From contig CALMPB010000155.1 in the NCBI GenBank assembly GCA_937871985.1, forward strand, positions 1 through 64,000: DNA of 64,000 nt, given 5' to 3'. Source of the stretch: an uncultured Burkholderiaceae bacterium (GTDB lineage: Bacteria > Pseudomonadota > Gammaproteobacteria > Burkholderiales > Burkholderiaceae). Of this stretch, positions 12,278 to 60,716 are shown piece by piece. The notes beneath the pieces were generated by a model. It was given only the letters and a program-made list of their open reading frames with translations. It did not search any database and was not told the origin of the DNA. The position numbers and the translations under genes are program-made. The first letter of the stretch is position 1. The number at the start of each line of letters is the position of its first letter.

Positions 12278-12289
12278 AGGCAGAGAAGA

Positions 12290-13985: not shown

Positions 13986-14087
13986 GGGGTTCCGTGTCCC
14001 TGTCGTGAAATACACATCGCCCAGCCGCCGCAAGCAGGCAGTGGCTGAACGTTAACCATCCGTTCCCCATGATCGCCATGTTCATCG

Positions 14088-42206: not shown

Positions 42207-42258
42207 CAGGTTCAATCAGGTTAATTCGGCTTTTCAAGTGGGCTGATTGATGTAATAT
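42207..42258 (+). promoter_or_regulatory. Putative promoter/operator of the defence operon
   Basis: An extended -10 TGTAATAT (42251-42258) is preceded at 16 bp by TTTTCA (42231-42236). Just upstream are two direct CAGGTT repeats one helical turn apart (42207-42212, 42217-42222), a possible binding site for the HTH regulator encoded directly downstream. Confidence 0.4.
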
Positions 42259-42306
42259 CTCAATCTTGCCCGTACTCCGCCCCACTCTGTGATGGAAGCT
42301 CATGTC

Positions 42307-42504
42307 ATGTCGGATCGCTGGTTGTCGGTCGAGGAGATCGCAGAGTATCTCGGCGTCAGTAAGGACACCGTCTACGCATGGATCAGCAAGCGGAACATGC
42401 CGGCCCACCGTATCGGCCGGCTGTGGAAATTCAAGACCGAAGAAGTGGATGAATGGGTTTGTTCTGGAGGGGCCGCGGATGCCGAGAGTAAGGGCAAGGG
42501 ATGA
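42307..42504 (+). CDS. Excisionase-type HTH DNA-binding protein
   Basis: A 65-residue protein consisting of an HTH_17/excisionase-type winged helix (WLSVEEIAEYLGVSKDTVYA, ISKRNMPAHRIGRLWKFKTE). ATG 42307 follows GGAAG at 8 bp; GTG 42289 and ATG 42292 are alternatives. Such proteins often precede restriction-modification and related defence operons. Here it is the first gene of the island and is likely its regulator, not an excisionase, since no integrase is nearby. Confidence 0.75.
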   Translation: MSDRWLSVEEIAEYLGVSKDTVYAWISKRNMPAHRIGRLWKFKTEEVDEWVCSGGAADAESKGKG

Positions 42505-42570
42505 GGTACTGGTTTGCCATAGGTTTCGCCTACTTCGTTCAAGTTTCGAAGTGGAAGCAGGAGATGTGAT

Positions 42571-43614: not shown

Positions 43615-43634
43615 CGAGCTGACGAGGGCCTCCG

Positions 43635-44093
43635 ATGTCGCGCATTCAGCCCACGCCCCCCGAGACCAGTCGCCGCATGGCGAAGGTACGGCAGAAGGAA
43701 ACGGATGCCGAGATCGCGCTGCGAAGAGAGCTTTACAGAAGGGGAATGCGCTACCGGGTCGACTACGAGGTTTTGAAAAAGCCTCGGCGTGTGGCTGACG
43801 TGGCATTCCCAGGGTTGAAGATCGCCGTCTTCGTCGATGGCTGTTTTTGGCATGGCTGCCCTGAGCATGCCACCTGGCCAAAGCAGAACGCCGAGTTCTG
43901 GCGGCAAAAGATCGAGATGAATCGACTCAGGGATGCCGACACGAATTCGAGACTGCTCGAAGTCGGTTGGGCGGTACTGCGATTCTGGGAGCACGAGTCA
44001 CCGGTCGAAGCCACGGATACCGTCGTACAGGCGGTCGCCATCGCAAAAGCAAAGCGCTGCACATCGTCTGCTGGCGCACACAAGAAAAAGTGA
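43635..44093 (+). CDS. Very-short-patch (Vsr) mismatch endonuclease
   Basis: A 152-residue Vsr-family nickase. Conserved elements: RMAKVRQKETDAEIALRREL, the catalytic Asp in ADVAFPGLKIAVFVDGCFWH, zinc ligands in GCPEH and the ending VLRFWEHE. Vsr cuts next to T:G mismatches created by deamination of 5-methylcytosine, and its genes accompany 5mC methyltransferases, as here (20 bp after). Its stop is 8 bp before drmD. Confidence 0.9.
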   Translation: MSRIQPTPPETSRRMAKVRQKETDAEIALRRELYRRGMRYRVDYEVLKKPRRVADVAFPGLKIAVFVDGCFWHGCPEHATWPKQNAEFWRQKIEMNRLRDADTNSRLLEVGWAVLRFWEHESPVEATDTVVQAVAIAKAKRCTSSAGAHKKK

Positions 44094-44101
44094 ACAGGAA
44101 G

Positions 44102-47100
44102 ATGGCCGACCAAATGGAAAACTCGAACGATCAGATGCACCAGACCTACCGTGCTCGTCCCGAGCCCGGCCAGTTGGTAGAGGTTCGTCGGCGCCAGTGG
44201 GTCGTGGCGGATGTCACCTCGTCGAAACTGGAGTCGGCTTCAACCTCGCAGAACTGCGTGACGCTGTCTTCTATCGACGAGGGCGGTCTCGGCGAGGAGC
44301 TGGAAGTCATCTGGGAGATCGAACCCGGTGCACAAGTCATAGAGCGGGCGGGCCTGCCTTCCATTACCGGGCAAGATGATTCCGACACGCTCGAAGCCTT
44401 CCTGGATGCAGTGCGATGGGGCGCCGCCACCAATGCAGACCGAGGGTTTCTACAGGCACCGTTCCGCAGTGGCGTCAGCATCGAGGACTTTCAGCTCGAC
44501 CCTCTGGTACGCGCCATCGATATGGCCCGCGTCAACCTGCTCATCGCTGACGACGTCGGCTTGGGCAAGACCATCGAGGCGGGGCTGGTCATTCAGGAGA
44601 TGCTGCTCCGGCACCGTGCCCGCACCGTCTTGATCATCTGTCCTGCATCCCTTCAGGAGAAATGGCGCATCGAGATGCTGGAGAAGTTCGGCCTCGACTT
44701 CCGCGTGGTCGACACTGCCTACATCAAGCAGTTGCGGCGCGAACGCGGCATCCACGCCAACCCTTGGACATCTCATCCGCGCCTCATCGCCTCGATGGAC
44801 TGGGTCAAGAGTGGCGAGGGGCTGCGCGCCATGCGCGATGTCCTGCCTCCCCATGCCGGCCATCCACGCAAGTTCGATCTACTGGTCGTCGACGAAGCGC
44901 ACAACATCGCCCCCGCCGCCGGGGCTCACTACGCCCTTGAGAGTCAGCGGACCCGCTTCATCCGTGCGATCAGCCCGCATTTCCAGCATCGCCTGTTCCT
45001 GACCGCGACGCCGCACAACGGCTACACCGAGTCGTTCACCTCACTGCTGGAGTTGCTGGACGATCAACGCTTCGCCCGCAACATCCTCCCCGACGAGAAG
45101 CAGCTGAGCCAGGTGATGATCCGTCGCCTGAAGAGCGATCTCGTCGATGCTGACGGCAAGCCCCTGTATGCCCAGCGCAAGCTCCAGGCGCTGGCGGTCC
45201 CATACACGGATGAGGAACGGGAGATCCACCAGAAGCTGAACGATTACTGTGCCAGCCGCGAAAAGGACGCGGAGAAGACCGGCGGCACCTTCGGTACCTC
45301 ATTCGTCAACCAACTGCTCAAGAAGCGCCTGTTCTCGTCGCCCGCCGCGTTCGCGTCCACGCTCGAAAAGCACATCGCTTCACTATCGAATGGCACCAAG
45401 CCCAAGGCTCGAGATGCCATGGCCGAGCGCATCCTGCGCAAAGCCATCCTGAAAGCAGACGAGGATTACGCCGACGACCAGGAAGTCGAGAATGCTCAAT
45501 CGGAAGCCGTCGAGGAGGCATCACGCCGATCCCAGCCGCTGACTCACGAACAGCAACATATGCTGACGGATCTGAGGCAATGGGCGCAGCGCGCCAAGAA
45601 CCAGACCGACTCCAAGGCCAGAGCTATCCTCGATTGGCTCTCAGCCAATCTGAAACCGGGAGGCCAGTGGAACGATCGCAGGGTGATCCTGTTTACCGAA
45701 TACCGCACCACCCACCAGTGGATGCACGAGATCCTCGCCAGCCATGGTTTCGGTGGCGAACGACTCGGTCTGCTCCACGGAGGACTCACCCAGGATGAGC
45801 GTGAGCCCATCAAGGCAGCCTTCCAGGCATCTCCCAAGGATTCCCCCGTCCGCATCCTGCTCGCCACCGATGCGGCCTCCGAAGGTATCGACCTGCAGAA
45901 CCACTGTAACTGCCTCATTCACCTGGAGATCCCGTACAACCCCAATGTGATGGAGCAGCGTAACGGTCGTATCGACCGTCACGGACAACGCGAAAAAGAG
46001 GTGCTGATCTGGCACCCTGTTGACGGCGGTGACGAAAGCCACGCCTCGGTCGGTGGCCATGGTGACGACATCCTGCGTGCGCTGCGCAAACTGGAGTCGA
46101 TGCGCGCCGACATGGGCAGCGTCAATCCGGTCATCGCGCCCCAGATGTCCGGACTCATCGACGGCTCGCTGAAGGATCTGGACACCCGCCTCGCGGAGGC
46201 CAAGATTGCCAAGGCCAGGCGCTTCGTGCGCGCCGAACGCGAGCTGAAAGAGCGTGTCGCTAAGCTCCATGAACGGCTCCTCGCCACCCAGCAGGATTTT
46301 CACCTCACGCCCGATCACATCCAGATGGCGGTGAAGACTAGTCTCGCGCTGGCGGGTCGCCCCCCGTTGGAACCCGTCGCCCTCGCAGATGCGCCCCAAG
46401 GCAGCGCATTCAGGATGCCACCCCTCTCGGGATCATGGGCGCGCTGTCTGGAGGGCCTGCGTCACCCGCATACCCAGCAGATACGCCCCATCACCTTCGA
46501 CCACGCCGTGGCCAAGGGGCGAGACGATGTCGTCTTGGTCCACCTGAATCATCGATTGGTGCAGATGTGCCTGCGGCTGTTGCGCGCCGAGGTCTGGGCG
46601 CAGGATGACGTGAAGAAACTCCATCGCGTCACCGTGCGCACATTGCCGGATGGCAGCATCGAGGGTCCGGCTGTGGTCGTCATCTCGCGGCTGGTCATCA
46701 CCGGCGGCAACCACCATCGCCTTCACGAGGAACTGACCGTCTCGGGCGGCTATCTGCGCGATCAGTCGTTCCGGCGCGAAGAGGGCGTCACGCGTGTCCA
46801 GCAGTGGCTGGATGAGGCGCAGCCCATCACAGCGAACGATTCGCTGTTCGATGTCCTTCGGGTGCGCTTCGATCGCACTCGACCCGCCATCCTGCAGGCG
46901 GTCGATGCCCGCTCGAAGGATCGACTCAAGTTTCTGGCCAACACACTGCAGACCCGCAAGCAACGAGAGTTGGACGACATCAGTGCCGTGCTGGACGAAC
47001 TCGAGAAGGCGATCCAGAGTGAACTGAAAAAGGACCAGCAGCCCGAGCAGATGTCGCTGTTCACCGAGGACGAGCGCACCCAGCTCAGGCGCGATACCGC

Positions 47101-47254
47101 AGCGCTGGAGGCGCGCCTCGCGCGCATTCCGGCCGAGCGCATTCAGGAGGTCCAGGCCATCGAGACCCGCTATGCCAAGCTTGATGATCGCACCTTCCCT
47201 GTTGCCGTCGTCTTCCTGGTTCCCGAGTCAGCCATGGATGGGGGTGCGGCATGA
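44102..47254 (+). CDS. drmD: DISARM SNF2-like helicase DrmD
   Basis: A 1050-residue SNF2-family helicase/translocase, the marker protein of class 1 DISARM. Walker A DVGLGKTIEAG at 151-161, DEAH box (LLVVDEAHNI, 264-267), motif III LTATPHNG, and the second RecA lobe with ILLATDAASEGIDLQNHCNC and QRNGRIDRHGQ (motifs V and VI). ATG 44102 gives a normal N-terminus; the frame opening at 43967 overlaps vsr and is a shadow. Its stop overlaps the start of drmMI (ATGA). Confidence 0.9.
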   Translation: MADQMENSNDQMHQTYRARPEPGQLVEVRRRQWVVADVTSSKLESASTSQNCVTLSSIDEGGLGEELEVIWEIEPGAQVIERAGLPSITGQDDSDTLEAFLDAVRWGAATNADRGFLQAPFRSGVSIEDFQLDPLVRAIDMARVNLLIADDVGLGKTIEAGLVIQEMLLRHRARTVLIICPASLQEKWRIEMLEKFGLDFRVVDTAYIKQLRRERGIHANPWTSHPRLIASMDWVKSGEGLRAMRDVLPPHAGHPRKFDLLVVDEAHNIAPAAGAHYALESQRTRFIRAISPHFQHRLFLTATPHNGYTESFTSLLELLDDQRFARNILPDEKQLSQVMIRRLKSDLVDADGKPLYAQRKLQALAVPYTDEEREIHQKLNDYCASREKDAEKTGGTFGTSFVNQLLKKRLFSSPAAFASTLEKHIASLSNGTKPKARDAMAERILRKAILKADEDYADDQEVENAQSEAVEEASRRSQPLTHEQQHMLTDLRQWAQRAKNQTDSKARAILDWLSANLKPGGQWNDRRVILFTEYRTTHQWMHEILASHGFGGERLGLLHGGLTQDEREPIKAAFQASPKDSPVRILLATDAASEGIDLQNHCNCLIHLEIPYNPNVMEQRNGRIDRHGQREKEVLIWHPVDGGDESHASVGGHGDDILRALRKLESMRADMGSVNPVIAPQMSGLIDGSLKDLDTRLAEAKIAKARRFVRAERELKERVAKLHERLLATQQDFHLTPDHIQMAVKTSLALAGRPPLEPVALADAPQGSAFRMPPLSGSWARCLEGLRHPHTQQIRPITFDHAVAKGRDDVVLVHLNHRLVQMCLRLLRAEVWAQDDVKKLHRVTVRTLPDGSIEGPAVVVISRLVITGGNHHRLHEELTVSGGYLRDQSFRREEGVTRVQQWLDEAQPITANDSLFDVLRVRFDRTRPAILQAVDARSKDRLKFLANTLQTRKQRELDDISAVLDELEKAIQSELKKDQQPEQMSLFTEDERTQLRRDTAALEARLARIPAERIQEVQAIETRYAKLDDRTFPVAVVFLVPESAMDGGAA

Positions 47255-50200
47255 GCAATCACGACCTGCACCACGACTGGCTGGCGCTGATCGAGATCTC
47301 CGGCCCGTTCCTCGCCGTTCCCGTTCTCAAGGAGGCATTTCCCCAAGGCCTGGAAGAGCTCGACGGAATCAAGCGCAAACGGCTGCGACAGGCCTACGAG
47401 GAATGGCGTGAGGCGCTCGAGACGGATGATCCACAATTTCCCGAGCTGCACGCCGCCTGGATCGATGAGGTACTGGCGCGTGGTCTGGAACTCGATGAGG
47501 ATGGCAAAGGCGACGTCCTAAAGCGCGCCGACTGGTGCGCGGCCAACCTGAGTGTCAGCCTGCCCGAGCATGGCGTGACGCTGTTCCCGGGTCTCGCCGT
47601 CATCGACGAGCAACGGGCCAACAAGCCGCTGATGCTCATCCACACCTACGGTCAGGACGTCGACCTCGATGCCACCTTGAAGTTGGATGGATGGGCCGCC
47701 ACCCCGGCCGATCGCATGGTTCAGTTGTGCCGCGCCACCGGCTGCCGCCTCGGGCTGGTGACCAATGGCGAGCGCTGGATGCTGGTCGACGCCCCAGTAG
47801 GCGCCGTCACCACCTTCGCCAATTGGTACGCCCGCATCTGGAGCCAGGAGCCCATCACCCTGCAGGCCTTCGTGCACCTGCTGGGCATTCGTCGCTTTTT
47901 CGTCGATGAAGCCGAGCAACTGCCGGCACTGTTCGATCGCTCGCTGAAGTATCAGGACGAAGTCACCGACGTCCTCGGTGAGCAGGTGCGGCGCGCCGTG
48001 GAAGTGCTGATCCAGGCGCTCGACAAGGCCGACCAGGACCGCGACCGCGAGTTGCTGCGCGACGTGAAGGAGCCCGTGCTCTACGAGGCCGCGCTGACGG
48101 TGATGATGCGGCTGGTGTTCCTGCTCTCCGCCGAGGAGCGTGGCTTGCTGTTGCTCGGCGATGAACGCTACGAGGCCAACTACGCGCTCTCGACCTTGCG
48201 TATGCAATTGCGCAAGGAATCCGAGGAGATCCTCGAACGCCGCTGGGATGCCTGGTCGCGCCTGCTGGCCATCTTCCGCGCCGTGTTCGGCGGTATCGAA
48301 CACGAGAACCTGCGCCTGCCCGTACTGGGTGGCTCGCTGTTCGACCCGGATCGCTTTCCTTTCCTCGAGGGCCGCGCCAAGGGCTCCGATTGGCGCATCG
48401 ACACGGCCAAACCGCTGCCGATCGACAACCGCACCGTGCTGCTGTTGCTCGAGGCCATTCAGCAGTTCCAGGGTCGAACGCTGTCCTACCGAGCACTGGA
48501 CGTGGAGCAGATCGGCTACGTCTACGAGGGCCTGCTGGAACGCACCGTCAAGCGCACCGCCGAGGTCACGCTGGAACTGGATGGCACCAAGAACGCCAAG
48601 GCGCCCTGGGTCAAGTTAGCCGAGTTGGAATCCGCCCGCCTCGACGGCGCCGAACGCCTGGCCGATTTGCTTCAGGAGCGCTCCGGCAGTTCCGCCAGCC
48701 GTGTGCGCAACGATCTGGCCAAGCCGGTCGACGACACACTTGCCGACCGTCTGCTGGCCGCCTGCCATGGGGATACCAGCCTTCGTAACCGCATCAAGCC
48801 CTTTGCCCATCTAGTGCGCACCGATCCATGGGGCTACCCGCTGGTCTACCCCGCTGGGGCCTTCATCGTCACCACCGGTTCCGACCGGCGCGAGACTGGC
48901 ACCCACTACACGCCGAAATCGCTGACCGAGGCCATCGTTACCGAGACGTTGACGCCGATCGCCTATGTGGGACCAGCAGACGGCAAGCCGCGTGAGCAGT
49001 GGGTGTTGAAGTCGCCTGCCGAACTGCTGGACCTGAAGATCTGCGACCCAGCCATGGGCTCGGGCGCGTTCCTGGTGCAAGCCTGCCGCTGGCTGGCTGA
49101 TCGCCTGGTCGAGGCCTGGTCACAGGCCGAAGGCAGCGGAGAGACGGTGAGCGTGGATGGCGAAGTGCTGGATGTGCCGGACACCAAGGAGCCGCTGCCC
49201 CGCGACACCGAGGCCCGCACTGTGATCGCCCGCCGCCTCATCGCCGAGCGCTGCCTCTACGGTGTGGACCTGAATCCCCTTGCGGTCGAACTCGCCAAGC
49301 TCTCCATCTGGCTGGTGACGCTTGCCAAGGGACGTCCCTTTGGCTTTCTCGACCACAACTTGCGTTGCGGTGACAGTCTTCTCGGCATTCACCGGCTGGA
49401 TCAGATCACCGAACTCTCCATGACGCCGACTGGCAAGGGCCAGCAACGCTTGTTCGGGCAGAACATCGAGCGGGCGGTACATGAGGCGATCGAGTTGCGG
49501 CAGCGACTGCGCCAGATGCCGATTCGTGACATCCGCGACGTCGAGGCCATGGCGCGACTAGATGCCGATGCACGCCAGAAGCTCGAAGTGCCGGAGTGCA
49601 TCGCCGATGCGTTCATCGGGGAGGTGTTCGCAGCGGGCGGCAGTGGGTCGGGGCTGGAGAACGCCTTGGCATCGCTGGTCGTCCAGGCCGGACAGGCAAT
49701 CGACGGGGACCACGACGCGCTCGCCTTGATGCGTCGGAAGTCAGCTGCCGCACTCTCGACCGATCTGCCCGCCGACAAGACCGCGAGGCGGCCTTTCCAC
49801 TGGCCGCTGGAGTTCCCGGAAGTCTTCGCGCGCGAACGCGCCGGCTTCGATGCTCTGGTGGGGAACCCCCCATTCATTACCGGTAAGAGAATTTCAACGG
49901 TACTGGGCGGAACATATCAAAACTATCTCAAGGCTACTGTCCAAGACAGCAAGGGGGCAGCCGATCTCGTAGTCTTTTTCTTCAGACGCGCATTTTCTGT
50001 AAGTAGAAACGGGGGTCTGATCGGGTTGATCGGCACAAAATCGATATCAGAAGGGGACTCTCGTATCGTTGGGTTGGCTTGGCTTCTAACGAACGGAGCG
50101 CACCTCGTTTGGGCGAAACATGAGATTAGATGGCCCGGTTCAGCCAGTGTAATTGTCAGCCTCATCGTCCTTCATCGGGGAAGGTGGACGGGACAAGTCT

Positions 50201-51576
50201 CCTTAAATGGAAGAGACGTCCCTGGCATTGGCAGCAATCTGATGGTGGAGTCAAAGACTGGCGTGCCTTCCGAGCCTTATGCACTGAAAAGCAATGATAG
50301 CCGGCGATCCGATGGCATCAAGATTCAAGGTGACGGCTTCATCCTCACTGAGGAGGAGCGGCGCATTTTATTGATGCAGGGACAAGAGAATGAAGCCGTA
50401 ATCTCCCGATACTTGACTGGTAAGGATCTCGCGCAAAACCCGCTCTCTGAGCCATCAGATTGGATTATTAACTTTGGTCAGATGCCACGGAGTACGGCAG
50501 AGCGGTATCGGGCTGCATTCAATCACGTAGAAACCCATGTCAAACCTTACAGGGATAAGTTGACGGGTCAGATTCATGAGTCCGACTTTTGGAAGTTCTG
50601 GGACAAGCGTGAAAGCTTCTTCGCAGCAATGAGAGGACAGGGAAGAATTCTTGCTTGTCCCTCTACTGCAAAATACTTGTTAATGGTCTTTGTCGATGAG
50701 AGCCTCGTTCCTTCGCATAGCGTCAAGCTTTTCGCGTACTCGGATGATGAGAGCTTTACGACAATGCAATCTATCGTGCATGAGGTTTGGGCGCGACAGC
50801 ATAGTGGGAAGCTTGGTCAAACCCTTGCGTACAACCTTTCAAGAGCGTTTGCCACTTTCCCGTGGCCTCACGAGAAACCCGCAGCCGGGTGTGGCTCGTC
50901 GCTCTTGAGATTGCGTCATGCACTCTGTGCTGAAAGGCGCATTGGCCTGACCGATCTCTACAACTTGATGCATTCTCCGTTGGAGGTGGATGCCGACGTT
51001 GAACGGCTTCGTAGTGCTCACGTCAAGATTGACCAGGAAACCATAGCGGCCTACGGCTGGGACGACCTGGACCTCGAACACGACTTCCACGAAGTGCCGT
51101 ATTTGCCCGAGAACGACCGGGTGCGCTTTACCATCTCGGAGATCGCGCGTGTCGAAGTGCTGCGGCGGCTGTCGGAGTTGAACCGGCAGCGATACGAGGA
51201 AGAAGTCGCCCTAGGCTTGCACGGAAAAGCCACAAGCTCCGGGCTCAACAAACCTCGCACTGCGCGTGCTCAGAACGCGCCCGTTCAACAGCCATCATTC
51301 GACTTTGATGTCACCCCGGCCAATGAGGGCGCCTACCTCAAGGTCACCGAGCCAGGCTCCCACGACCACGCCAGCCCCTCACAGGCCATCGCTGAATACT
51401 TGAGGGCACATTCCGGCTGGCACGCCAAGTCCGACATCGTCGCCGCCATCGGCATCACCGACGGCCAGTGGAATGCTTCGATCGCCGACCTCGTAGCTCG
51501 TGGACTCGTCGAACGGCATGGAGAACGGCGCGGGGCACGCTATCGGTGGTCAGAAGAACGAACCAGACAGGATTGA
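47251..51576 (+). CDS. drmMI: DISARM class 1 N6-adenine DNA methyltransferase DrmMI
   Basis: A 1441-residue Eco57I-like protein. Motif I ICDPAMGSGAFLVQACRW is near 597, motif IV NPPF (LVGNPPFITGKR) near 872, and a C-terminal target-recognition and winged-helix part (PSQAIAEYLRAHSGWHAKSD) follows. It methylates host DNA so that DISARM spares it. Up to about 49870 the gene is GC-rich like its neighbours; from there to about 50930 GC falls to about 43-50 percent, then recovers. The low-GC part follows NPPF and corresponds to the recognition region, so a swapped specificity domain is likely. Confidence 0.88.
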   Translation: MSNHDLHHDWLALIEISGPFLAVPVLKEAFPQGLEELDGIKRKRLRQAYEEWREALETDDPQFPELHAAWIDEVLARGLELDEDGKGDVLKRADWCAANLSVSLPEHGVTLFPGLAVIDEQRANKPLMLIHTYGQDVDLDATLKLDGWAATPADRMVQLCRATGCRLGLVTNGERWMLVDAPVGAVTTFANWYARIWSQEPITLQAFVHLLGIRRFFVDEAEQLPALFDRSLKYQDEVTDVLGEQVRRAVEVLIQALDKADQDRDRELLRDVKEPVLYEAALTVMMRLVFLLSAEERGLLLLGDERYEANYALSTLRMQLRKESEEILERRWDAWSRLLAIFRAVFGGIEHENLRLPVLGGSLFDPDRFPFLEGRAKGSDWRIDTAKPLPIDNRTVLLLLEAIQQFQGRTLSYRALDVEQIGYVYEGLLERTVKRTAEVTLELDGTKNAKAPWVKLAELESARLDGAERLADLLQERSGSSASRVRNDLAKPVDDTLADRLLAACHGDTSLRNRIKPFAHLVRTDPWGYPLVYPAGAFIVTTGSDRRETGTHYTPKSLTEAIVTETLTPIAYVGPADGKPREQWVLKSPAELLDLKICDPAMGSGAFLVQACRWLADRLVEAWSQAEGSGETVSVDGEVLDVPDTKEPLPRDTEARTVIARRLIAERCLYGVDLNPLAVELAKLSIWLVTLAKGRPFGFLDHNLRCGDSLLGIHRLDQITELSMTPTGKGQQRLFGQNIERAVHEAIELRQRLRQMPIRDIRDVEAMARLDADARQKLEVPECIADAFIGEVFAAGGSGSGLENALASLVVQAGQAIDGDHDALALMRRKSAAALSTDLPADKTARRPFHWPLEFPEVFARERAGFDALVGNPPFITGKRISTVLGGTYQNYLKATVQDSKGAADLVVFFFRRAFSVSRNGGLIGLIGTKSISEGDSRIVGLAWLLTNGAHLVWAKHEIRWPGSASVIVSLIVLHRGRWTGQVSLNGRDVPGIGSNLMVESKTGVPSEPYALKSNDSRRSDGIKIQGDGFILTEEERRILLMQGQENEAVISRYLTGKDLAQNPLSEPSDWIINFGQMPRSTAERYRAAFNHVETHVKPYRDKLTGQIHESDFWKFWDKRESFFAAMRGQGRILACPSTAKYLLMVFVDESLVPSHSVKLFAYSDDESFTTMQSIVHEVWARQHSGKLGQTLAYNLSRAFATFPWPHEKPAAGCGSSLLRLRHALCAERRIGLTDLYNLMHSPLEVDADVERLRSAHVKIDQETIAAYGWDDLDLEHDFHEVPYLPENDRVRFTISEIARVEVLRRLSELNRQRYEEEVALGLHGKATSSGLNKPRTARAQNAPVQQPSFDFDVTPANEGAYLKVTEPGSHDHASPSQAIAEYLRAHSGWHAKSDIVAAIGITDGQWNASIADLVARGLVERHGERRGARYRWSEERTRQD

Positions 51577-51582
51577 CTTGCA

Positions 51583-53331
51583 ATGAAACTACGCGGACTG
51601 CGCATTCACAACTTCCGCTCGATCATCGACGCCGATATCGAGGTGCACGACTACACGATGATCGTCGGCGCGAATAACGCCGGTAAAAGCAATCTCCTCG
51701 CCGCCCTACGTGCTTTCTACGAGGACATCAAGTGGTCCAATGAGGATTTCCCGAAAACCGCCAGTGCTGACGAGGAGGCATGGGTCGAGCTGACCTACGA
51801 GCTGACCGATATCGAATGGGGCGGGTTGGCCGAGAAGTACAAGAATGGAGCCGAAGGCCAGTTTCTGACCGTACGGCGATACTTCGCCTCGAAGGATCGG
51901 GTGAAATCCAACCAGAGCAACATCTACGGCGTCTTGGCCGGAGAGCCCGAGAAAGACCTGTTTTACGGGGCGAAGAACGTCGGCACGGCGAAGGTTGGGC
52001 GATTGATTTACATCCCCGCACTGACCACGGCAGCGGATCAGATGAAGACGACCGGTCCGTCACCACTGCGGGACATGCTGAATTTCATGCTCAAACGGGT
52101 CGTCTCCGATAGCGCAGCCTACAAAGAGGTCGAGTCGGCGTTCGGCAAGCTGAACGAGGAGGCGCGCGGCGCGGATGGCTTCTTGTCGAAGATCGCCGAC
52201 CCGATCAATGCGGCGATTCGGCAATGGGGCATTCGCTTCGATATGTCCGTCAACTCGATCGCGCCCGATGAGATCACCAAGAATCTGGTCAAGCACGGAT
52301 TTGCCGACGCGATGTTGGGCGACACCGTCCTTGCACTGGACAGGTATGGTCACGGTTTTCAGCGATCGTTTTTGTACGAGCTAATCAAGCTCGCGCCGAC
52401 GTTTGCCGAGGTCAAGAAGAGCGAGAAGAAGGAGTTCGATCCGGACTTCACACTCATTCTGTTTGAAGAGCCCGAAGCATTCCTTCATCCCGCACAGCAG
52501 GAAAACATGGCATATCACCTGCGCCGTCTCGGGGCCGGGGAAGGCCAGCAGGTTATCGTCACTAGCCACTCTCCAATCTTCGTCGGCAAAGTGGCTGATG
52601 ACCTCTGCCAGATCGTCCGCATCCGGCGTGAGAACGGCGTTTCGACGCTCGGACAAATCGAGCGCAGCAAGGTTGCTAACGTTATCGGTGCCGGGCTGGA
52701 TTTCAAGAAATGCATTGAAGCCTATGTCAACGATCAGGCAATACCAGATGACCAGAAGGGTGAGGCAAAGAAGCTCCTTGCCGATGCACAACCCGACGAA
52801 GAACTCGCCCATCAGGAAGAGCGCTTCCGTTATCAACTCTGGCTCGACTCGGATCGCTCCTCAATGTTCTTTGCCGATCGCGTATTGCTCGTCGAGGGAG
52901 CGACTGAGAAAGCGCTGTTCCAGTGGTTGCTGGCGCGTGACTGGCATGAGTTGACCGGTCACCGAATTGCCGTTGTCGATGTCTTGGGGAAATACAACTT
53001 TCACCGTTACATTGCCTTGCTCGAAGGATTTGGCATCCCTTACGGCCTGATGCTCGACGACGATCAAGACAAGCAGCACCACAAAGCCGTCAATGAAATG
53101 CTCAAGAACAAGACGGGGCCGCATCGCCTCGCGGAGCCGGTGTTTCTTGAGCACTGTATGGAGATTTTCCTCGGCAAGGCGCTTCCTGGGTGCAACGACC
53201 AGAAGCCGATCCAGATTCTGAAAGCGCTTGAGCAAGGCGGGATTGCCACGGAAAAGCTTGATGAACTGAACGCGCTGTTCTTGAAAGCTTTGGCGCTTTC
53301 CGCCTTCCGGCCGGAGGAGGTGCAAGCATGA
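51583..53331 (+). CDS. OLD-family ATPase/TOPRIM nuclease
   Basis: A 582-residue overcoming-lysogenization-defect type protein: N-terminal ABC-type ATPase with Walker A GANNAGKS (29-36), Walker B FEEPEAFLHP (about 293-302) and switch TSHSPIF, then a C-terminal TOPRIM nuclease with VLLVEGATEKALF (about 435-447) and LMLDDDQDK (about 488-496). These metal-binding acidic residues are intact. It starts 6 bp after drmMI and its stop overlaps the drmA start (ATGA). Class 1 DISARM is known with five genes; this sixth gene sits inside the operon. A partner UvrD/GajB helicase is absent. Confidence 0.88.
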   Translation: MKLRGLRIHNFRSIIDADIEVHDYTMIVGANNAGKSNLLAALRAFYEDIKWSNEDFPKTASADEEAWVELTYELTDIEWGGLAEKYKNGAEGQFLTVRRYFASKDRVKSNQSNIYGVLAGEPEKDLFYGAKNVGTAKVGRLIYIPALTTAADQMKTTGPSPLRDMLNFMLKRVVSDSAAYKEVESAFGKLNEEARGADGFLSKIADPINAAIRQWGIRFDMSVNSIAPDEITKNLVKHGFADAMLGDTVLALDRYGHGFQRSFLYELIKLAPTFAEVKKSEKKEFDPDFTLILFEEPEAFLHPAQQENMAYHLRRLGAGEGQQVIVTSHSPIFVGKVADDLCQIVRIRRENGVSTLGQIERSKVANVIGAGLDFKKCIEAYVNDQAIPDDQKGEAKKLLADAQPDEELAHQEERFRYQLWLDSDRSSMFFADRVLLVEGATEKALFQWLLARDWHELTGHRIAVVDVLGKYNFHRYIALLEGFGIPYGLMLDDDQDKQHHKAVNEMLKNKTGPHRLAEPVFLEHCMEIFLGKALPGCNDQKPIQILKALEQGGIATEKLDELNALFLKALALSAFRPEEVQA

Positions 53332-56300
53332 AACCCAATAGCAACGCATGGATCGCCATCGATCATGGCCTCGGCACCGACCAAAGGCTTGCGCCCTACG
53401 CCCTGGTCCTGAGGGGCGAACGCTCCCTTTATCAGGCCATCGAGGAGGACGACTGGGTTCTGGTCCTGAACCGCGTTGGTAGCATCACCCGTGTCGGGCG
53501 TGTGCTGCGGGTTCGTTCCGATCTCGAAACCACCACGCTTTATTTCGACCGACTGCTATCGGTCACCGATCCCGTCTCGGTCGGTCTGACTGCACTCACG
53601 CCACCGTCTTCGGGCAGTATCGGTCGCATCCAGTGGACGGATTTCGTCGAAGCTCTGCCCAAGGCATTGCAAAGGACAATCGCCGATGTGCCGACGGTCG
53701 GGTCTGACGCCCGTTCACCCCAGCATCAGCAGGAACTCGCCTACATCCGCGAATTACTACAACTGGCCGTGATGGACGATCTGCTCGGCCCGGCGGGTGG
53801 CCCTCATGAGCGTATCGTCGACATGGGTGTGCGGGATCGCTATCTGGTGGGAAAGCTCGCTCCGCGTGAGGCGGCACAGGGCGGCATCGAAGGGCTCGAA
53901 GGGCCACTGGCGAACGACGAAGTCGAGGAGCCCACCGACCCGAAGGCGCCCGGCCAGCACGAACCCGGCGCGGAGTTCGGCACGGCGACGGGCCGTGTCG
54001 AGCCCGAATCCGATGCGGCAGACGAGATCGACGCGGCCAGCAATCAGTCGCTGGCGCCGAGCAGCCTCGGCATGACCTTTTGCGTGGATGGTGACGCCGA
54101 ACGCATCGAGATCGAGGTGCGCTGGGGTCGCTATGAGCGCAGTGACGAGCACGAGATCTTTCGCACCCGCAAGAACAAGGAGACCGGTGCCGAGGAGCAA
54201 ACCAAAGCGAAGGTCTGGCAGCGCATCCCCTGCGGCGGCAAGCTGGTGCTGCCGCTCAGCGAAGGCGTGATCCCCCATCAGGCGCCGGACAAGAGCTATC
54301 CCGAAGTGCGGGTGCAAGGCTCCGTGCGTGCCAAGAACGCGAATGGTGACCGCCTGGTGACCCTGTTCCTGGTCAATGCACAGGAGGAACCCGAGACCAA
54401 CCGCGATTCCGCCTGGGTGTTCCAGCCGGAGCTGATCGTTCGATCGGAAGCAGAAGCCCCCAAGCGCGCCATCTTCCGCCGCCGGCCCGTACTGGATGCG
54501 GACGGCATGGACCCGGAGCGTGAATCGCTGGAGATGATCTACCGCAACCGGGTGGAGTTCGCGGTGGGTCATGGCGTCGCCGTCCATGCCGAAGCGGCGG
54601 ATGACGTGACGCTGGCCACCGAGGTGCGCACCATCGTCATGCCTCAATACGAGGTGCAGGTCACCGAGACACCGGGTCTCAATCCCGCCGACCGACCGGC
54701 GATGAAGGAAATGGTGAGCAGTGGTCTGCTCGACATGCAGCGCCTCGCCACCTTGGACATCGATCCTCTGTTGGACGCCCTGAACCTGCTGACCAAGGAT
54801 TACGCCGCGTGGATCGACGAGCAGCGTGCTCGAGTTGGTGTCGAAGTGTTCGGCTACGACGCGCAGGCCCGACAGGCGATGGACCGATGCCAGGAGATCC
54901 ACACGCGTCTGCAGCAGGGCATCAATACGCTCAAGGCCGACGAGAGAGCGCTGGCAGCCTTCCGTTTCGCCAACCGGGCGATGGCCACGCAGCGCGTGCG
55001 TAGCCAGTACGCCCTCGAAATCCGGCGCGGTAAGGACGTCACCGTCGAGCAGTTCGACGTGCTGAAGAACCGCAGCTGGCGCCCGTTCCAGTTGGCCTTC
55101 CTGCTGCTGTCGATCCCTTCGCTGGCCGACCCGACGCACCCGGATCGCGTGCAGCCCGTCGAAGCCTATGCCGACCTGCTGTGGTTCCCCACCGGCGGCG
55201 GCAAGACCGAGGCGTACCTGGGTGTGGCCGCCTTCACCATGGCCATTCGGCGCATGCAGGGCAATCTTGGTGGTTACGACGGCTCGCGCGGTCTGGCAGT
55301 GATCATGCGTTACACCCTGCGGCTGCTGACGCTGCAGCAGTTCCAGCGTGCCACGGCACTGATCTGTGCGATGGAGGTACTGCGTCGCGAGGCGCTGGCC
55401 AAGGGTGACGAATCGCTTGGCACCGAACCCTTCACCATCGGACTGTGGGTGGGCAACAAGGTGACGCCCGGAACGACCGAGGACAGCCATCGGGCCATCG
55501 AGGACATCCGCAACCCCGGCAAGTACAACGCCGGGGCGGCGTCTCCCGCGCAACTGACCAGTTGCCCCTGGTGTGGCTCGGAAGTCGCCCCTGGGCGCGA
55601 CGTAGAGGTCGACAAGGGCCGTGGACGCACCTTCGTCTACTGCGGCGACAAGAAGGGCCGCTGCGACTTCTCGAAGGGCAAATCCAGCAAGCTCCCTCAC
55701 CCGGGCATCCCGGTGCTCGTCGTGGACGAGGAGATCTACCACCGTCCCCCGACGATGATGATCGCCACCGTGGACAAGTTCGCCATGATGGCGTGGCGGG
55801 GTCAGGTACGCACGCTATTCGGTCGGGTGGGCCAGGAATGCGAGCGGCACGGCCTGCTGTGGCAGGGGGCAGACTGCAATGGCAACCACCAGGCCGGTAA
55901 GGGACTTGGTGCGACCAAGGTCAAGACCATCAGCCCGATCCGTCCGCCGGACCTGATCATCCAGGACGAGTTTCATCTGATCAGCGGGCCGCTCGGCACC
56001 ATGGTTGGCCTGTACGAGACGGCCGTGGACGAGCTGTGCGGCTGGAAACTCGGCGAACATATGGTCAAGCCGAAGATCATCGCGTCGACCGCGACGGTGC
56101 GTAAGGCTCGCGAGCAGGTGAACAACGTCTTCATGCGGCGAGTATCGGTGTTCCCGCCGCACGGGCTGGACGTGGAGGACAACTACTTCTCTGTCCAACG
56201 ACCCATCGAGGACAAGCCGGGACGGCGCTATCTGGGCGTCTGCTCTCCTGGAAGTTCACGACCTGCGATGCTGATCCGCGTCTACACGGCATTCCTGACC

Positions 56301-57347
56301 GCTGCTCAGGCATTGTTCGACCGCTTCGGCGAGCCCGCAGACCCCTACATGACCATGGTCGGCTATTTCAACTCGCTGCGAGAGCTGGGGGGCATGAAGC
56401 GCTTGGCCGAGGACGATGTGCAGACGCGTTCCTACCGGGTGCAGATGAGCATGGTCGAGCGCCCCGCGCTGGCGCAACGCAGCGTCAGCAACATTCGCGA
56501 GCTGACCTCGCGGGTTTCCAGCCAGGACATTCCGAAGTACCTCGACAACCTTGAGGTGAAGTTCAAGTCCGAGTTCGATGCTGCAGCCGGCAAATACGTG
56601 ACCAAGTGGCAAGAGGGCGACACCCGGGCAATCGACGTGGTGCTGGCCACCAACATGCTGTCGGTGGGGGTGGACGTCAATCGGCTGGGGCTGATGGCGG
56701 TCAATGGCCAGCCCAAGGGCACGGCGGAGTACATCCAGGCCACCAGCCGGGTGGGACGTTCTTTCCCCGGCTTGGTCTGCACCGTGCTCACCTGGGCACG
56801 GCCACGCGACCTCTCGCACTACGAGACCTTCGAGCACTACCACGCCACCTTCTACAAGCACGTCGAAGCGCAGTCGGTGACACCCTTCTCGCCGCGCGCG
56901 ATGGACCGTGGCCTGACCGGCTCGCTACTGAGCCTGATGCGCCTGGAGAACGATGCGTTCAGCCCCAACGAGGGGGCAGGCAAGTTGGACAAGTCAGATC
57001 AGAGCGAGATCACCGAGGCCATCAATGTGCTCGTCAAACGGGCATGGAATGTCAGCGAGCTGTCCAGCACCAAGAGCCTGGCCGAACAGGAACTGAAGGA
57101 GCGCGCAGACGAGTGGGCCAAGGAGGTGGGCAAAGGCGGCCGCATTCTGGCCTACGAGAAGCGCGGACCCGAGAAGGACAAGACCGTTGCATTGATCAGG
57201 TCACCAGGCATCCAGGCCTGGGACAACTGGACCGTGCCCATGTCGATGCGTGAGGTGGAGCCCGGTGTGCGCTTGATCATGAATACCAGCCACATCTCGG
57301 ACGACCACGATTGGAAGCCTCGTCCCGCGACGAAGGATGAGGATTGA
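53328..57347 (+). CDS. drmA: DISARM helicase DrmA
   Basis: A 1339-residue superfamily 2 helicase, core component of all DISARM systems. Walker A FPTGGGKT at 620-627, a zinc-finger-like pair CPWC (746-749) with a further YCGDKKGRC, DEFH box (IIQDEFHLISG, 880-883), and the C-terminal lobe with LATNMLSVGVDVNRLGLMAV and QATSRVGRSFPG. DrmA and DrmB are known to form the DNA-engaging complex that restricts unmodified phage DNA. Starts inside an ATGA overlap with the OLD-type gene, which ties that gene to the system. Confidence 0.92.
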   Translation: MKPNSNAWIAIDHGLGTDQRLAPYALVLRGERSLYQAIEEDDWVLVLNRVGSITRVGRVLRVRSDLETTTLYFDRLLSVTDPVSVGLTALTPPSSGSIGRIQWTDFVEALPKALQRTIADVPTVGSDARSPQHQQELAYIRELLQLAVMDDLLGPAGGPHERIVDMGVRDRYLVGKLAPREAAQGGIEGLEGPLANDEVEEPTDPKAPGQHEPGAEFGTATGRVEPESDAADEIDAASNQSLAPSSLGMTFCVDGDAERIEIEVRWGRYERSDEHEIFRTRKNKETGAEEQTKAKVWQRIPCGGKLVLPLSEGVIPHQAPDKSYPEVRVQGSVRAKNANGDRLVTLFLVNAQEEPETNRDSAWVFQPELIVRSEAEAPKRAIFRRRPVLDADGMDPERESLEMIYRNRVEFAVGHGVAVHAEAADDVTLATEVRTIVMPQYEVQVTETPGLNPADRPAMKEMVSSGLLDMQRLATLDIDPLLDALNLLTKDYAAWIDEQRARVGVEVFGYDAQARQAMDRCQEIHTRLQQGINTLKADERALAAFRFANRAMATQRVRSQYALEIRRGKDVTVEQFDVLKNRSWRPFQLAFLLLSIPSLADPTHPDRVQPVEAYADLLWFPTGGGKTEAYLGVAAFTMAIRRMQGNLGGYDGSRGLAVIMRYTLRLLTLQQFQRATALICAMEVLRREALAKGDESLGTEPFTIGLWVGNKVTPGTTEDSHRAIEDIRNPGKYNAGAASPAQLTSCPWCGSEVAPGRDVEVDKGRGRTFVYCGDKKGRCDFSKGKSSKLPHPGIPVLVVDEEIYHRPPTMMIATVDKFAMMAWRGQVRTLFGRVGQECERHGLLWQGADCNGNHQAGKGLGATKVKTISPIRPPDLIIQDEFHLISGPLGTMVGLYETAVDELCGWKLGEHMVKPKIIASTATVRKAREQVNNVFMRRVSVFPPHGLDVEDNYFSVQRPIEDKPGRRYLGVCSPGSSRPAMLIRVYTAFLTAAQALFDRFGEPADPYMTMVGYFNSLRELGGMKRLAEDDVQTRSYRVQMSMVERPALAQRSVSNIRELTSRVSSQDIPKYLDNLEVKFKSEFDAAAGKYVTKWQEGDTRAIDVVLATNMLSVGVDVNRLGLMAVNGQPKGTAEYIQATSRVGRSFPGLVCTVLTWARPRDLSHYETFEHYHATFYKHVEAQSVTPFSPRAMDRGLTGSLLSLMRLENDAFSPNEGAGKLDKSDQSEITEAINVLVKRAWNVSELSSTKSLAEQELKERADEWAKEVGKGGRILAYEKRGPEKDKTVALIRSPGIQAWDNWTVPMSMREVEPGVRLIMNTSHISDDHDWKPRPATKDED

Positions 57348-57349
57348 AC

Positions 57350-59209
57350 ATGACGACGACCAATAAGACTCCAGTCGGAGAAGTCAGACCCAGCCAGTTG
57401 CTCTGGACCTACGGGCCAGGGGCATTGATCGACCTGCCGAGCCTGTCCGTCGTGACGCTCGGCATCGACCGATGGGAGAAGGACCGCTGCCAACCAATCC
57501 AGGAAGCCAGACTGCTGGCCGCCGTTCGGAAGGTGCTTGGAGCACAGGTCGAGAACCTGCGGATGCCGCCGTTCCAGAAAAGCGAGCTCGTCGATGTCTG
57601 GTCGGCCGAGGCCAACATCGGTGTTCCCGTTCGGCCGTTCCCGCGTTGGATGCGCTGCGTGAAATGCGGCCTGCTGTCCCCCTTCGATGCCGGACTGTTC
57701 GAGATCAAGGAGAACCGCTTCAGGCCCGAGCGAACCCGGTTCGTCCATAAAGGATGTCGGGGTTCGAAGGGCGATCAACCCGCCAAGGACGCCGATGCCG
57801 TACCGGCACGCTTCCTGTTGGCCTGCCGCGACGGCCACCTGGACGACTTCCCTTGGCACTACTTCGTCCACGGCGGCAACAGTTCCTGTAAGGGCACGCT
57901 GCGCTTCTTCGAGAGCGGCGCCTCGTTGCAGACCGAGAACCTGTGGGCGAAGTGCGATGCCTGTGGTGCTTCGAGGAGCATGGCACACGCCTTCGGCAAG
58001 GCCGGGAAGGAGAATTTGCCGGGGTGTCGCGGACGACATCCCCACCTCGATCACTTCGACAACGAATGCGACGAGGAGGCCCGGGCGGTTCTGTTGGGCG
58101 CCACGAACAGTTGGTTCCCGATCACACTTTCGGCGCTCGCCATCCCCCAGACCAAGGACCCACTCAGTCAGCTGATCCAGGATGGCTGGGAGTTCTTCGA
58201 GGAACTGGAATCCGAAGCCGAAGTGTCGGTGACGGTGAAGACCTTGAAGAAGACCGGGGCACTGCCAGGGATCGACAAATATCCGGCGGCGGCGATCTGG
58301 TCGGCCATCGAAGCGCACCGTACCGGTGGCGGTCAGGAGGTCGTGGGTGAGGCAGACATCAAGGGGCCCGAGTGGGACGTGCTGACAGAGGCGAACCCAC
58401 CCACGGACTACCCGCACTTCATGAGCAAGAAGGTCGGTACGCCACCGGCCTTTGCAAAGCACATCAGCAGAGTGCTGCTTCTGGAGCGACTGCGTGAGGT
58501 CAATGCCTTGCTCGGTTTCACTCGCGTGGAGGCGCCCGAAGAAACCGGCGACCCGAACGAACGGCCCCAGATGGCCAACCTCTCACGAAGCAAACCGGAT
58601 TGGGTTCCCGCAAACCAGGTGCATGGTGAGGGTATCTTCATCCAGTTCGACGAGCAGGCACTCATCGCATGGGAAGCACTACCTGCCGTCGCGCAGGTCG
58701 ACAAGATGCTCCGGGGAGGCCACAGGGGATGGCGCAATTCACGTCATCTCGATCCTGACGAGGGCTACCCCGGCATTCGCTACGCCATGCTCCACACGCT
58801 CTCGCACCTGCTGATTCGTGAGCTGGCGTTGGAGTGCGGCTACAACGCAGCGAGTATCCGCGAGCGAATCTATGCCGATACCTCGGGCGAAAGTCCGCAG
58901 GCCGGTATCCTCATCTACACGGCAGCGGCGGACTCCGATGGAACTTTGGGCGGTCTCGTCGATCTCGGCAAGCCGGAGAATCTTGGTCGCCTATTGGAGC
59001 AAGCCTTGAATCGATCGAAGATCTGCTCCTCTGACCCGCTTTGCTCCGAGCACGATCCCGAGAAAGATCGCTCACTTCATGCAGCGGCGTGCCACGCTTG
59101 TAGCCTGGTGGCCGAGACCTCCTGCGAGCGCGGCAATCGCTATCTGGATCGGTCATTGCTAGTTCCGACCCTGGAACGTATCGACGCGGCTTTCTTCAAG
59201 GGCTTGTGA
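57350..59209 (+). CDS. drmB: DISARM protein DrmB (DUF1998)
   Basis: A 619-residue protein with the DUF1998 domain at its C-terminus (about 480-610), including a cysteine-rich part (SKICSSDPLCSEHD, AACHACSLVAETSC) that probably binds zinc, and an earlier CxxC pair (RCVKCGLLSP; AKCDACGASR). Works with DrmA as a complex. ATG 57350 is 2 bp after the drmA stop; an upstream in-frame TTG at 57344 overlaps it. Confidence 0.92.
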   Translation: MTTTNKTPVGEVRPSQLLWTYGPGALIDLPSLSVVTLGIDRWEKDRCQPIQEARLLAAVRKVLGAQVENLRMPPFQKSELVDVWSAEANIGVPVRPFPRWMRCVKCGLLSPFDAGLFEIKENRFRPERTRFVHKGCRGSKGDQPAKDADAVPARFLLACRDGHLDDFPWHYFVHGGNSSCKGTLRFFESGASLQTENLWAKCDACGASRSMAHAFGKAGKENLPGCRGRHPHLDHFDNECDEEARAVLLGATNSWFPITLSALAIPQTKDPLSQLIQDGWEFFEELESEAEVSVTVKTLKKTGALPGIDKYPAAAIWSAIEAHRTGGGQEVVGEADIKGPEWDVLTEANPPTDYPHFMSKKVGTPPAFAKHISRVLLLERLREVNALLGFTRVEAPEETGDPNERPQMANLSRSKPDWVPANQVHGEGIFIQFDEQALIAWEALPAVAQVDKMLRGGHRGWRNSRHLDPDEGYPGIRYAMLHTLSHLLIRELALECGYNAASIRERIYADTSGESPQAGILIYTAAADSDGTLGGLVDLGKPENLGRLLEQALNRSKICSSDPLCSEHDPEKDRSLHAAACHACSLVAETSCERGNRYLDRSLLVPTLERIDAAFFKGL

Positions 59210-59210
59210 C

Positions 59211-59972
59211 ATGGAGAGGCTCTTGGACGCCGTCGCAGCTGTGGTCTGTCTGGTCTCTCCTGAGAAGGTACAGGCCATAGCTAGCCGGATTCGTCGGACC
59301 GATGCCAGCAAAGCAGCCGGTGCGCTGTCGGGCGTGGTCAACACCCCCGTTGCTGCTAAGGTTGTGGATCAGCTCATCGATGCTTGGCGAGCCAGTGAGG
59401 TCAGCGCCGATGAGCTTGCATCGATGCTGCTCGCCGCCGGCCATGTTTTCACCAAGGCTACGAATCAACAATCCACCGAACTCGTGTGGACGGGACCGAC
59501 GACACCCTTCGTCTCGGCTCGACGAACCGAGCAGACGCTACTGCAGGTCATCAACGCCGCTGAGCAGACCCTGTTCATCACCAGCTTCGTGGCCTACAAC
59601 GTCTCGACCATCGTCAAGGCGCTGAATGCGGCAAGTGATCGCGGAGTGGTCATCTCCATGCTGCTCGAATTGTCTCAGGACCACGGCGGCAGCATCTCGT
59701 TTGACGCGATTGGCAAGATGAGCACGCTGGTCTCCGCTGCGAGGCTTTATTCCTGGCGAGACAAAGCCGCCCCGTTCTCTGACGGGCGCGTTCACGCCAA
59801 AGTCGCCGTTGCCGATGGCAAGATGTGTTTCATCACCAGCGCCAACCTGACCGGCCACGCGATGGAGCAGAACATGGAGGCCGGTGTGCTTCTCACCGGC
59901 GGGCAGATTCCCAAGCTGCTACTAGACCATTTGCAGGCGCTGGTAGACACGAAGACGGTTTCACCCGTCTGA
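59211..59972 (+). CDS. drmC: DISARM phospholipase-D-fold protein DrmC
   Basis: A 253-residue PLD-superfamily protein with one HKD motif (VHAKVAVADGKMCFITSANL; His195, Lys197, Asp202), likely a dimeric nuclease. It is the last DISARM component, starting one base after the drmB stop. Earlier work on DISARM found this gene to be less essential than drmA and drmB. The gene is convergent with the HNH-type gene 51 bp away. Confidence 0.9.
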   Translation: MERLLDAVAAVVCLVSPEKVQAIASRIRRTDASKAAGALSGVVNTPVAAKVVDQLIDAWRASEVSADELASMLLAAGHVFTKATNQQSTELVWTGPTTPFVSARRTEQTLLQVINAAEQTLFITSFVAYNVSTIVKALNAASDRGVVISMLLELSQDHGGSISFDAIGKMSTLVSAARLYSWRDKAAPFSDGRVHAKVAVADGKMCFITSANLTGHAMEQNMEAGVLLTGGQIPKLLLDHLQALVDTKTVSPV

Positions 59973-60023
59973 ATCGCTACTTCGAAATCCATCTGCCTGC
60001 CGAAACGAATGCGTCCTGCCGGA

Positions 60024-60716
60024 TCAGTCCCAGACGACTTCGCAGCCGAGATATTCCCGAAGGACGATTTTCACGGTCAGCCCATTGGCTTGGCTGGTAT
60101 GGAAGCGATAGTTTCCTTCTTGCACGGCCAACCATCCCTCGGTGAAAGTGTCGGTGCCCGCCACAAGCAGCCTCTGCATCGCACGGCTCCCGACTTCCGG
60201 CCAGACATCGAACGCGTCGTCATCGCTTTCGAATGCGGTGCGCTCTTTTTCCGTCATGAGCGACAGCGGCTTGAATCCGAGGCGTGATGGTTCGTGGAGT
60301 TGTGGCTCGTTGAGTTCGAATGCGGCATGACATCGAGCCAATTTGAGGATGACGCGACTCACGCGGTCGTTTTCGGCTGCCCAGACAGGGCCTTCTGCAC
60401 CATCTGTGCGTGCCCGCTGCAATCGGGTCAACAGCGAGGAGTTCGCACGCAAGATACGGCCAATCTTGGCCCTGTGCAGTTTTTCGGGTGCGATGTCCCC
60501 GGCGATGACACATTCGAGCAAACAGGCCAGATATTCTTCGTCGAGTGAAAGGCCGTTGTTGCATTCACGGCACGCCGGAGCCGCCATGAGATTCTCTGGA
60601 TACGGCTCATCCAAGAGAACTTTCGACGGGACGTGATCGATGGTTTCGCTTGGCCCGCCGCAATGCACGCAGAACCCATTGTTTCTGTCGTCGCCGTAGC
60701 ATCGCAGCTGCTGCAT
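60024..60716 (-). CDS. HNH endonuclease-like zinc protein
   Basis: A 230-residue protein with an N-terminal treble-clef/HNH-like module: zinc-binding CVHCGG and CRECNN pairs around the motif ETIDHVPSKVLLDEPYPENL. The remaining 150 residues are helical with no recognised domain. ATG 60716 (MQQLRCYGDDRNNGFC) was chosen; the frame to 60809 has no family features. It is on the opposite strand to DISARM and converges with drmC. It may be a defence accessory or an independent gene that entered with the island. Confidence 0.65.
   Translation of the reverse strand: MQQLRCYGDDRNNGFCVHCGGPSETIDHVPSKVLLDEPYPENLMAAPACRECNNGLSLDEEYLACLLECVIAGDIAPEKLHRAKIGRILRANSSLLTRLQRARTDGAEGPVWAAENDRVSRVILKLARCHAAFELNEPQLHEPSRLGFKPLSLMTEKERTAFESDDDAFDVWPEVGSRAMQRLLVAGTDTFTEGWLAVQEGNYRFHTSQANGLTVKIVLREYLGCEVVWD

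Follow-up and report, generated by a model that had tools for sequence, protein, structure and literature searches.

What is a gene for an OLD-family nuclease doing in the middle of a class 1 DISARM operon—does its product belong to the system around it, or does it act in its own right? The gene lies in a window of 64,000 nucleotides (the whole stretch of DNA analysed here) from an uncultured Burkholderiaceae bacterium. Class 1 DISARM is defined by drmD, drmMI, drmA, drmB and drmC, and the window carries these genes in that order on the forward strand: drmD, encoding a SNF2-like helicase (43967-47254; NF038317, 1435 bits against a cut-off of 610); drmMI, for an MmeI/Eco57I-type adenine methylase (47251-51576; PDLC02643, 1879 bits; Pfam Eco57I and MmeI_TRD); the helicase gene drmA (53328-57347; NF038325, 1504 bits, cut-off 950); drmB (DUF1998/MZB, 57344-59209; NF038324, 775 bits, cut-off 240); and drmC, for a PLD nuclease (59211-59972; NF038319, 254 bits, cut-off 133; PLDc_2). 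DrmD, DrmA, DrmB and DrmC all exceed curated NCBIfam cut-offs and the class 1 gene set is complete, as a sequence-only reading of this DNA had stated, with drmMI recognised by PADLOC and Pfam domains. A type IIG enzyme model in PADLOC outscores PDLC02643 on drmMI (2200 versus 1879 bits) and none of the NCBIfam models scored above cut-off on DrmMI, so the drmMI label leans on context too. The annotated start of drmD is likewise uncertain, as the NF038317 match opens only at residue 65; the true start probably lies 3' of the TTG at 43967. The window departs from the class 1 layout by the OLD gene at the drmMI-drmA junction and by a dcm-vsr pair upstream, both on the forward strand: a gene for a C5-cytosine DNA methylase (DrmMII/dcm-like) before drmD (42571-43614; PF00145, 195.6 bits; PADLOC DrmMII, 300 bits) and one for a Vsr-like mismatch endonuclease (43635-44093; PF03852, 58.6 bits). 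Homologues of the methylase also occur 5' of drmD in L027, L080, L092-L095, L111-L113, L118 and L119.

The OLD gene itself (51583-53331, forward strand) starts with ATG, encodes 582 amino acids and is fitted tightly between its neighbours. It begins 6 bp after the end of drmMI at 51576, its stop codon (53329-53331) overlaps the drmA ATG (53328-53330) by 4 bp, and the stretch GGAGGAGGTG stands ahead of the drmA start; the placement between drmMI and drmA reported in the sequence-only reading is thereby confirmed. Judging from the gene layout, the OLD gene is probably co-transcribed with the DISARM genes, and a promoter scan of 42000-60500 returned 2 sites where 4.0 were expected. The claim that the ATPase and TOPRIM motifs are complete was also borne out. 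Pfam matches to AAA_15 (98 bits, cut-off 32.1) and OLD-like_TOPRIM (PF20469; 65.3 bits, cut-off 23.2) exceeded their cut-offs, PADLOC Old was the best model (189.6 bits), and the invariant residues in an alignment of 42 sequences included G29, N31, N32, G34, K35 and S36 (Walker A), E295, E296 and H329, and E438, G439, D492 and D494 on the TOPRIM side—residues that presumably play the catalytic roles familiar from OLD and TOPRIM proteins. An ABC ATPase of OLD type with Walker A/B motifs at the N-terminus, followed by a C-terminal OLD-like TOPRIM domain with its acidic residues, places the protein in the OLD nuclease family.

By sequence, profile and Foldseek E-value, the closest solved structure is 6p74, the OLD nuclease of Thermus scotoductus, with GajA and the retron Eco8 OLD nuclease coming next. 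The AlphaFold2 model is middling (pLDDT 69.5, pTM 0.48) and its TM-scores against 6p74 are low (0.27/0.30), so the predicted fold supports membership of the OLD family rather than structural details. Like P2 Old and the T. scotoductus enzyme, the window's protein combines a fused ABC ATPase and TOPRIM domain and has no helicase partner; it differs from them in being remote (16% identity) and in sitting in an operon. With Gabija GajA it shares the ATPase-TOPRIM architecture and TOPRIM similarity, but its gene is flanked by drmMI and drmA, with no gene for the UvrD-like helicase GajB next to it, and Gabija membership was rejected. PARIS membership was dismissed too, as the TOPRIM domain is fused into one chain, a separate AriB (DUF4435) gene is absent and the neighbours are DISARM genes; so was a role as retron Eco8 effector, given 70.6 bits with NF038234 against a cut-off of 250 and no reverse transcriptase among the seven operon proteins scanned. 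Full-length homologues (P0002-P0006) are 97-100% identical to the window's OLD protein, some of them possibly from its own strain. P0004, at 99% identity, is named from Pseudomonas aeruginosa.

Whether the gene's position is peculiar to this window can be judged from other class 1 operons. We assembled 31 non-redundant loci, the window included, with drmD, drmMI, drmA and drmB on one strand (drmC was not detectable in all). They were drawn from plasmids, where 19 of the 36 records with a DrmD match were fetched, and from genomes, where 4 of 369 scored over the family cut-off (a further 18 below it were left out) and other searches yielded 3/398, 4/399, 3/385 and 12/311, some genomes being found twice; regions were fetched for all genome matches except G1737 (contig ends). 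The count omits L065 and L081 (rearranged), L118 and L119 (broken cores), L113 (identical to L112), L120 (decayed, with slot size and ORF lengths as in L114) and L069, L078, L079, L097 and L111 (incomplete). When a junction was scored as occupied at a gap above 250 bp between core ORFs, a threshold chosen in this analysis, drmMI-drmA was occupied in 20/31 loci, drmD-drmMI in 5/31, drmA-drmB in 0/31 and drmB-drmC in 0/19. Fisher tests of drmMI-drmA against the other three junctions, in that order, gave 2e-4, 2e-8 and 2e-6, values that are indicative only because the 31 loci are not phylogenetically independent. Restoring six dropped rows where scorable gave 22/34, 7/37, 0/36 and 1/24, respectively; the single drmB-drmC case is L065, whose junction contains a BrnTA pair, and the slot of L118 is empty under the 250-bp rule. 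The drmMI-drmA junction was empty in the remaining 11 of the 31 loci (L028, L030, L031, L067, L071, L072, L074, L077, L080, L095 and L096), and in 15 of the 20 occupied slots, but not in the other five, all cargo ran in the operon direction. The drmMI-drmA junction is therefore the preferred insertion point among the junctions of the operon. In L094, a gene for a Schlafen group 3 helicase-domain protein (13188-15209; PADLOC PDC-S41, 737 bits) lies between drmD and drmMI, which may be a second, less used slot.

The search for OLD-type genes in this slot, which the sequence-only reading had put forward as a check, gave a split outcome: tblastn detected a close relative of the window's OLD in none of the 30 other scored loci, and one decayed copy turned up in a fragment outside the set (L001, see below). 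The idea that OLD is a conserved sixth DISARM gene was rejected on these grounds. Conversely, the suggestion that a single occurrence would point to a chance insertion does not hold as simply stated either, as the junction is a hotspot (20/31) and OLD occurs there with two core lineages.

What occupies the slot elsewhere is varied, and part of it is recognisably defensive. The four cores nearest to that of the window (DrmA identity 95% in L092, 88% in L093, 79% in L094 and 73% in L076) all lack OLD at this position. L092 instead holds a GHKL ATPase and a Methyltransf_35 protein (PF20553; 7895-10306), and the same pair fills the slot of the Microvirga plasmid L027 (9549-11963). PADLOC found no match for the L027 pair at 1e-8 (only Pfam was applied to the L092 pair), and a filler shared by two distant cores is a candidate for an unlabelled defence module. 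L093 carries Helicase+DUF2290 (PADLOC 972 and 268 bits), L094 a pair 83 and 74% identical to it—Helicase+DUF2290 alone is reported to inhibit phage T7 (PMC9122126)—and L076 a UG5-nitrilase defence reverse transcriptase (948 bits). Further slots contain a GHKL ATPase with a Schlafen AlbA_2 protein (L112), a PifA-like KAP NTPase with a PIN protein (L115), a PARIS-like pair of an ABC ATPase and a DUF4435-like protein (L066; 23.8 bits for the latter, below the Pfam cut-off of 27), PIN domain proteins (L064, L117), XisH/XisI (L029), an XRE-type regulator with small genes (L033, L070), an insertion sequence with toxin-antitoxin-like genes (L073), three genes on the opposite strand (L032) and genes without a label (L068, L075, L114, L116). 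With part of the cargo scanned, a PADLOC-labelled protein or a close homologue of one was found in 7 of the 20 occupied slots (window, L066, L076, L093, L094, L112 and L115). In L076, drmMI is split by an IS66 transposase gene (11174-12754).

The edges of the slot are sharp at the DNA level. Using blastn against L092, L093 and L094, similarity to the window ended at 51545-51547 and restarted at 53342-53343, delimiting a cassette slot (51547-53343, no strand assigned); the individual joints were 51547/53343, 51545/53343 and 51546/53342, respectively, and in the other three of the six relatives compared (L076, L027 and L080) divergence was too great for DNA similarity to extend close to the joints. 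The window and L092 share 84.8% identity over 42304-49850 and 87.0% over 53343-60356, and between these blocks two short pieces of drmMI match (89 and 77%). Across the window, L027, L076, L092, L093 and L094, joints measured -13 to 61 bp. Target-site repeats were not found at the two slot joints: the longest shared word had 8 bp, a length reached in 61 of 300 shuffles. L092 and L093 are 86% identical in DrmD, 88% in DrmA and 95% in DrmB, yet differ in cargo. Between L092 and L027, identity is 84 and 77% in the GHKL pair, against 67% (DrmD), 59% (DrmMI), 62% (DrmA) and 73% (DrmB) in the core. Similar operons thus hold different modules at drmMI-drmA. A separate stretch of variability lies within drmMI, where DNA similarity to L092 is lost over part of the recognition domain (about 49850-51049) although the flanking blocks are 85 and 89% identical; together with a low GC content there (51%), this divergence points to swapping of target specificity.

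An OLD of the same clade sits at the drmMI-drmA junction of another core lineage. L001, a fragment from a metagenome bin of Elioraea, comprises the 3' end of drmMI, an OLD gene and the 5' end of drmA, and aligns with the window as a single block (51545-53668, 87.9%). Its OLD gene shows 91.5% DNA identity to that of the window, and its drmA head (405 bp) is 90.4% identical to L094 and 66.2% to the window. Since the window and L094 share only 77.5-80% DNA identity in their core genes, the presence of OLD in the two lineages appears to postdate the divergence of the cores, although OLD may simply evolve slowly, which would also account for the high identity, or may have been captured twice, separately, by the two cores. 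Over the first 45 drmA columns, L001 is nearer the window than L094 (41 versus 36 matches, or 91 versus 80%), which hints, on a thin basis, at a crossover just inside drmA. The fragment is decayed: OLD has a stop near codon 550, and drmA is both interrupted by a stop and truncated after some 135 codons. One OLD clade therefore occupies the drmMI-drmA junction of two DISARM core lineages, in one case within a decayed locus.

Beyond DISARM, the clade keeps other company. When each species was represented by a single genome, a scan returned 16 loci that carry close OLD relatives (52-87% identical). Three adjoin type I restriction-modification genes (L002, L005, L011) and three type III (L003, L009, L014); one follows a Hachiman HamB gene (L008), one lies between PDC-S05 and a weakly LmuB-like gene (L013), and seven have no assigned neighbours (L004, L006, L007, L010, L012, L015, L016; partly scanned or at contig ends). 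Some contigs being short, a DISARM gene was detectable beside OLD in 1 of the 16 loci, namely the L001 remnant. A DrmA search of 14 OLD-bearing genomes or plasmid records (from a total of 19 loci) gave two matches, one beside OLD in L001 and one on another contig of the L010 genome. Among plasmids, 68 records matched OLD (best, 57% identical), and the three inspected (L034-L036, 48-57% identical) had no annotated defence partner beside it. Moreover, two IMG/VR contig pieces carry OLD with no detectable DISARM gene, 12 of 61 genomes of relatives matched OLD, remotely only (best E-value 6.8e-12), and E. coli genomes searched with 47251-53331 gave no match. One group in the phylogenetic tree, comprising five rows and fully supported, mixes OLDs of type I and type III operons, and the clade thus changes host operons. 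In L008, from Bordetella hinzii (6341-11749), HamB (1652 bits) is followed by 156 bp and the OLD gene. Directly 3' of OLD we observed a 277-aa protein in L003 (4829-5662), L011 and L014 (11791-12624 in each) and, as a cut copy, in L006 (7701-7898). It occurs in both type I and type III restriction-modification settings, its full copies being 87-91% identical; the L003 copy had no Pfam or PADLOC match, and tblastn found none in the window. The protein is possibly an OLD partner.

These observations are probably best explained by OLD being an exchangeable, autonomously acting defence cassette docked at the drmMI-drmA junction of a class 1 DISARM operon. Modules would be exchanged by homologous recombination in the tail of drmMI and the head of drmA, and coupled translation would keep OLD at the expression level of DISARM. 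From what is known of the family, the protein would cleave nucleic acid by itself through an ATP-gated TOPRIM domain, adding a further layer of defence next to DISARM that perhaps deals with phages able to evade or inhibit the latter. IbfA, a plasmid-borne OLD-like protein, is reported to abort phage infection (PMC12111858), which by analogy makes such self-sufficiency plausible. Of the three modes considered, an autonomous layer is tentatively favoured over a guard of DISARM and a nuclease licensed by it.

A wider reading concerns the operon as a whole. It is conceivable, if doubtful, that drmMI-drmA is a dedicated cassette slot and DISARM a chassis that swaps entire effector or guard modules through recombination at fixed joints, the docked module being expressed with DISARM and perhaps licensed by it. 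The modules counted here are OLD, the defence reverse transcriptase, Helicase+DUF2290, GHKL with methyltransferase, GHKL with Schlafen, and the PifA-like and PARIS-like cargo.

The sequence-only reading had gone further and suggested that OLD is an added effector of DISARM. The tight coupling of OLD to the operon and the non-random slot stand; its status as a DISARM component is not supported, tblastn having found no close relative in the other 30 loci. We consider it unlikely that DrmAB, active on unmodified phage DNA, passes DNA ends to OLD for degradation with DrmC dispensable: translation is coupled flush to the operon and OLD occurs with two DISARM cores, as such a role would have it, but related cores carry different cargo or have an empty slot (L080, L095), OLDs of this clade also adjoin unrelated systems and drmC is still present. 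The proposal that OLD stands in for the PLD nuclease is not supported either: drmC is present, its model is matched over almost its whole length, and replacement of DrmC was rejected.

A guard role is, by our estimate, just as unlikely. By analogy with PARIS and phage Ocr, OLD would watch over DISARM and kill the cell once a phage protein inhibits it. The nucleases linked to OLD-ABC ATPases in BREX loci are proposed to be backup effectors, and AriA senses Ocr (PMC12839542); the slot of L066 holds a PARIS-like pair and OLD kin lie inside restriction operons, yet the single-chain ATPase-TOPRIM protein is unlike AriA and AriB. Finally, it is quite improbable that OLD is a neutral passenger that landed by chance and is kept because its loss would be polar on drmA, for although only one intact case occurs among the 31 loci and the L001 copy is decaying, the motif residues are intact, full-length homologues exist at 97-100% identity (with the above proviso on strain), the slot position is non-random and part of its cargo in other loci is labelled as defence.

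The autonomous cassette that we prefer has its closest parallels in BREX. At least 1242 taxa are reported to have nucleases linked to OLD-ABC ATPases, prominently those of the TOPRIM type, in BREX or BREX-related loci (PMC12839542), and GmrSD/BrxU within a BREX locus is described as blocking T2 without BREX (PMC12373910). The likeness lies in stand-alone defence genes inside a methylation-based operon; here, the host is DISARM, the junction a preferred one, and one cargo is found in two core lineages. ShdA, a defence gene of nuclease type within DISARM-like operons, resembles the window's OLD in that respect but has an RmuC domain, and its approximately 70 homologues in such operons are described only from Pseudomonas (PMC10270631). 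A preprint on YprA helicases describes class 1 DrmA as having an EVE-like domain at its N-terminus, and its main text contains neither OLD nor TOPRIM (PMC12458937). In the openly licensed literature, as far as it was covered (in part), we found no description of OLD in DISARM or of a drmMI-drmA slot; the fixed junction, the range of cargo and an OLD shared by two cores are unreported there, whereas nested defence is known from BREX.

A fixed slot with changing modules would supply candidate destroyers of phage DNA within the DISARM operon itself. DrmC is reported to be dispensable, and recruitment of other nucleases (host PLD nucleases being suggested) in a 'mix-and-match' manner has been proposed (PMC9142583); if the chassis reading is true, it would help to explain why DISARM can do without its own nuclease. 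The slot may also serve as a discovery tool, with its unlabelled genes (e.g., the GHKL ATPase and Methyltransf_35 pair) as predicted defence modules. At the same time, the locus carries a warning: position inside such an operon is not enough to show that a gene encodes one of the system's subunits.

Two further observations concern the operon and its surroundings. The PADLOC model PDLC02572, named DrmA, matches DrmD almost end to end, and PDLC02626, named DrmD, matches the C-terminus of DrmMI; both labels look misplaced. Near the operon, on the reverse strand, lies a gene for a TraG/TraD-like coupling protein (61745-63904), which suggests a conjugative element.
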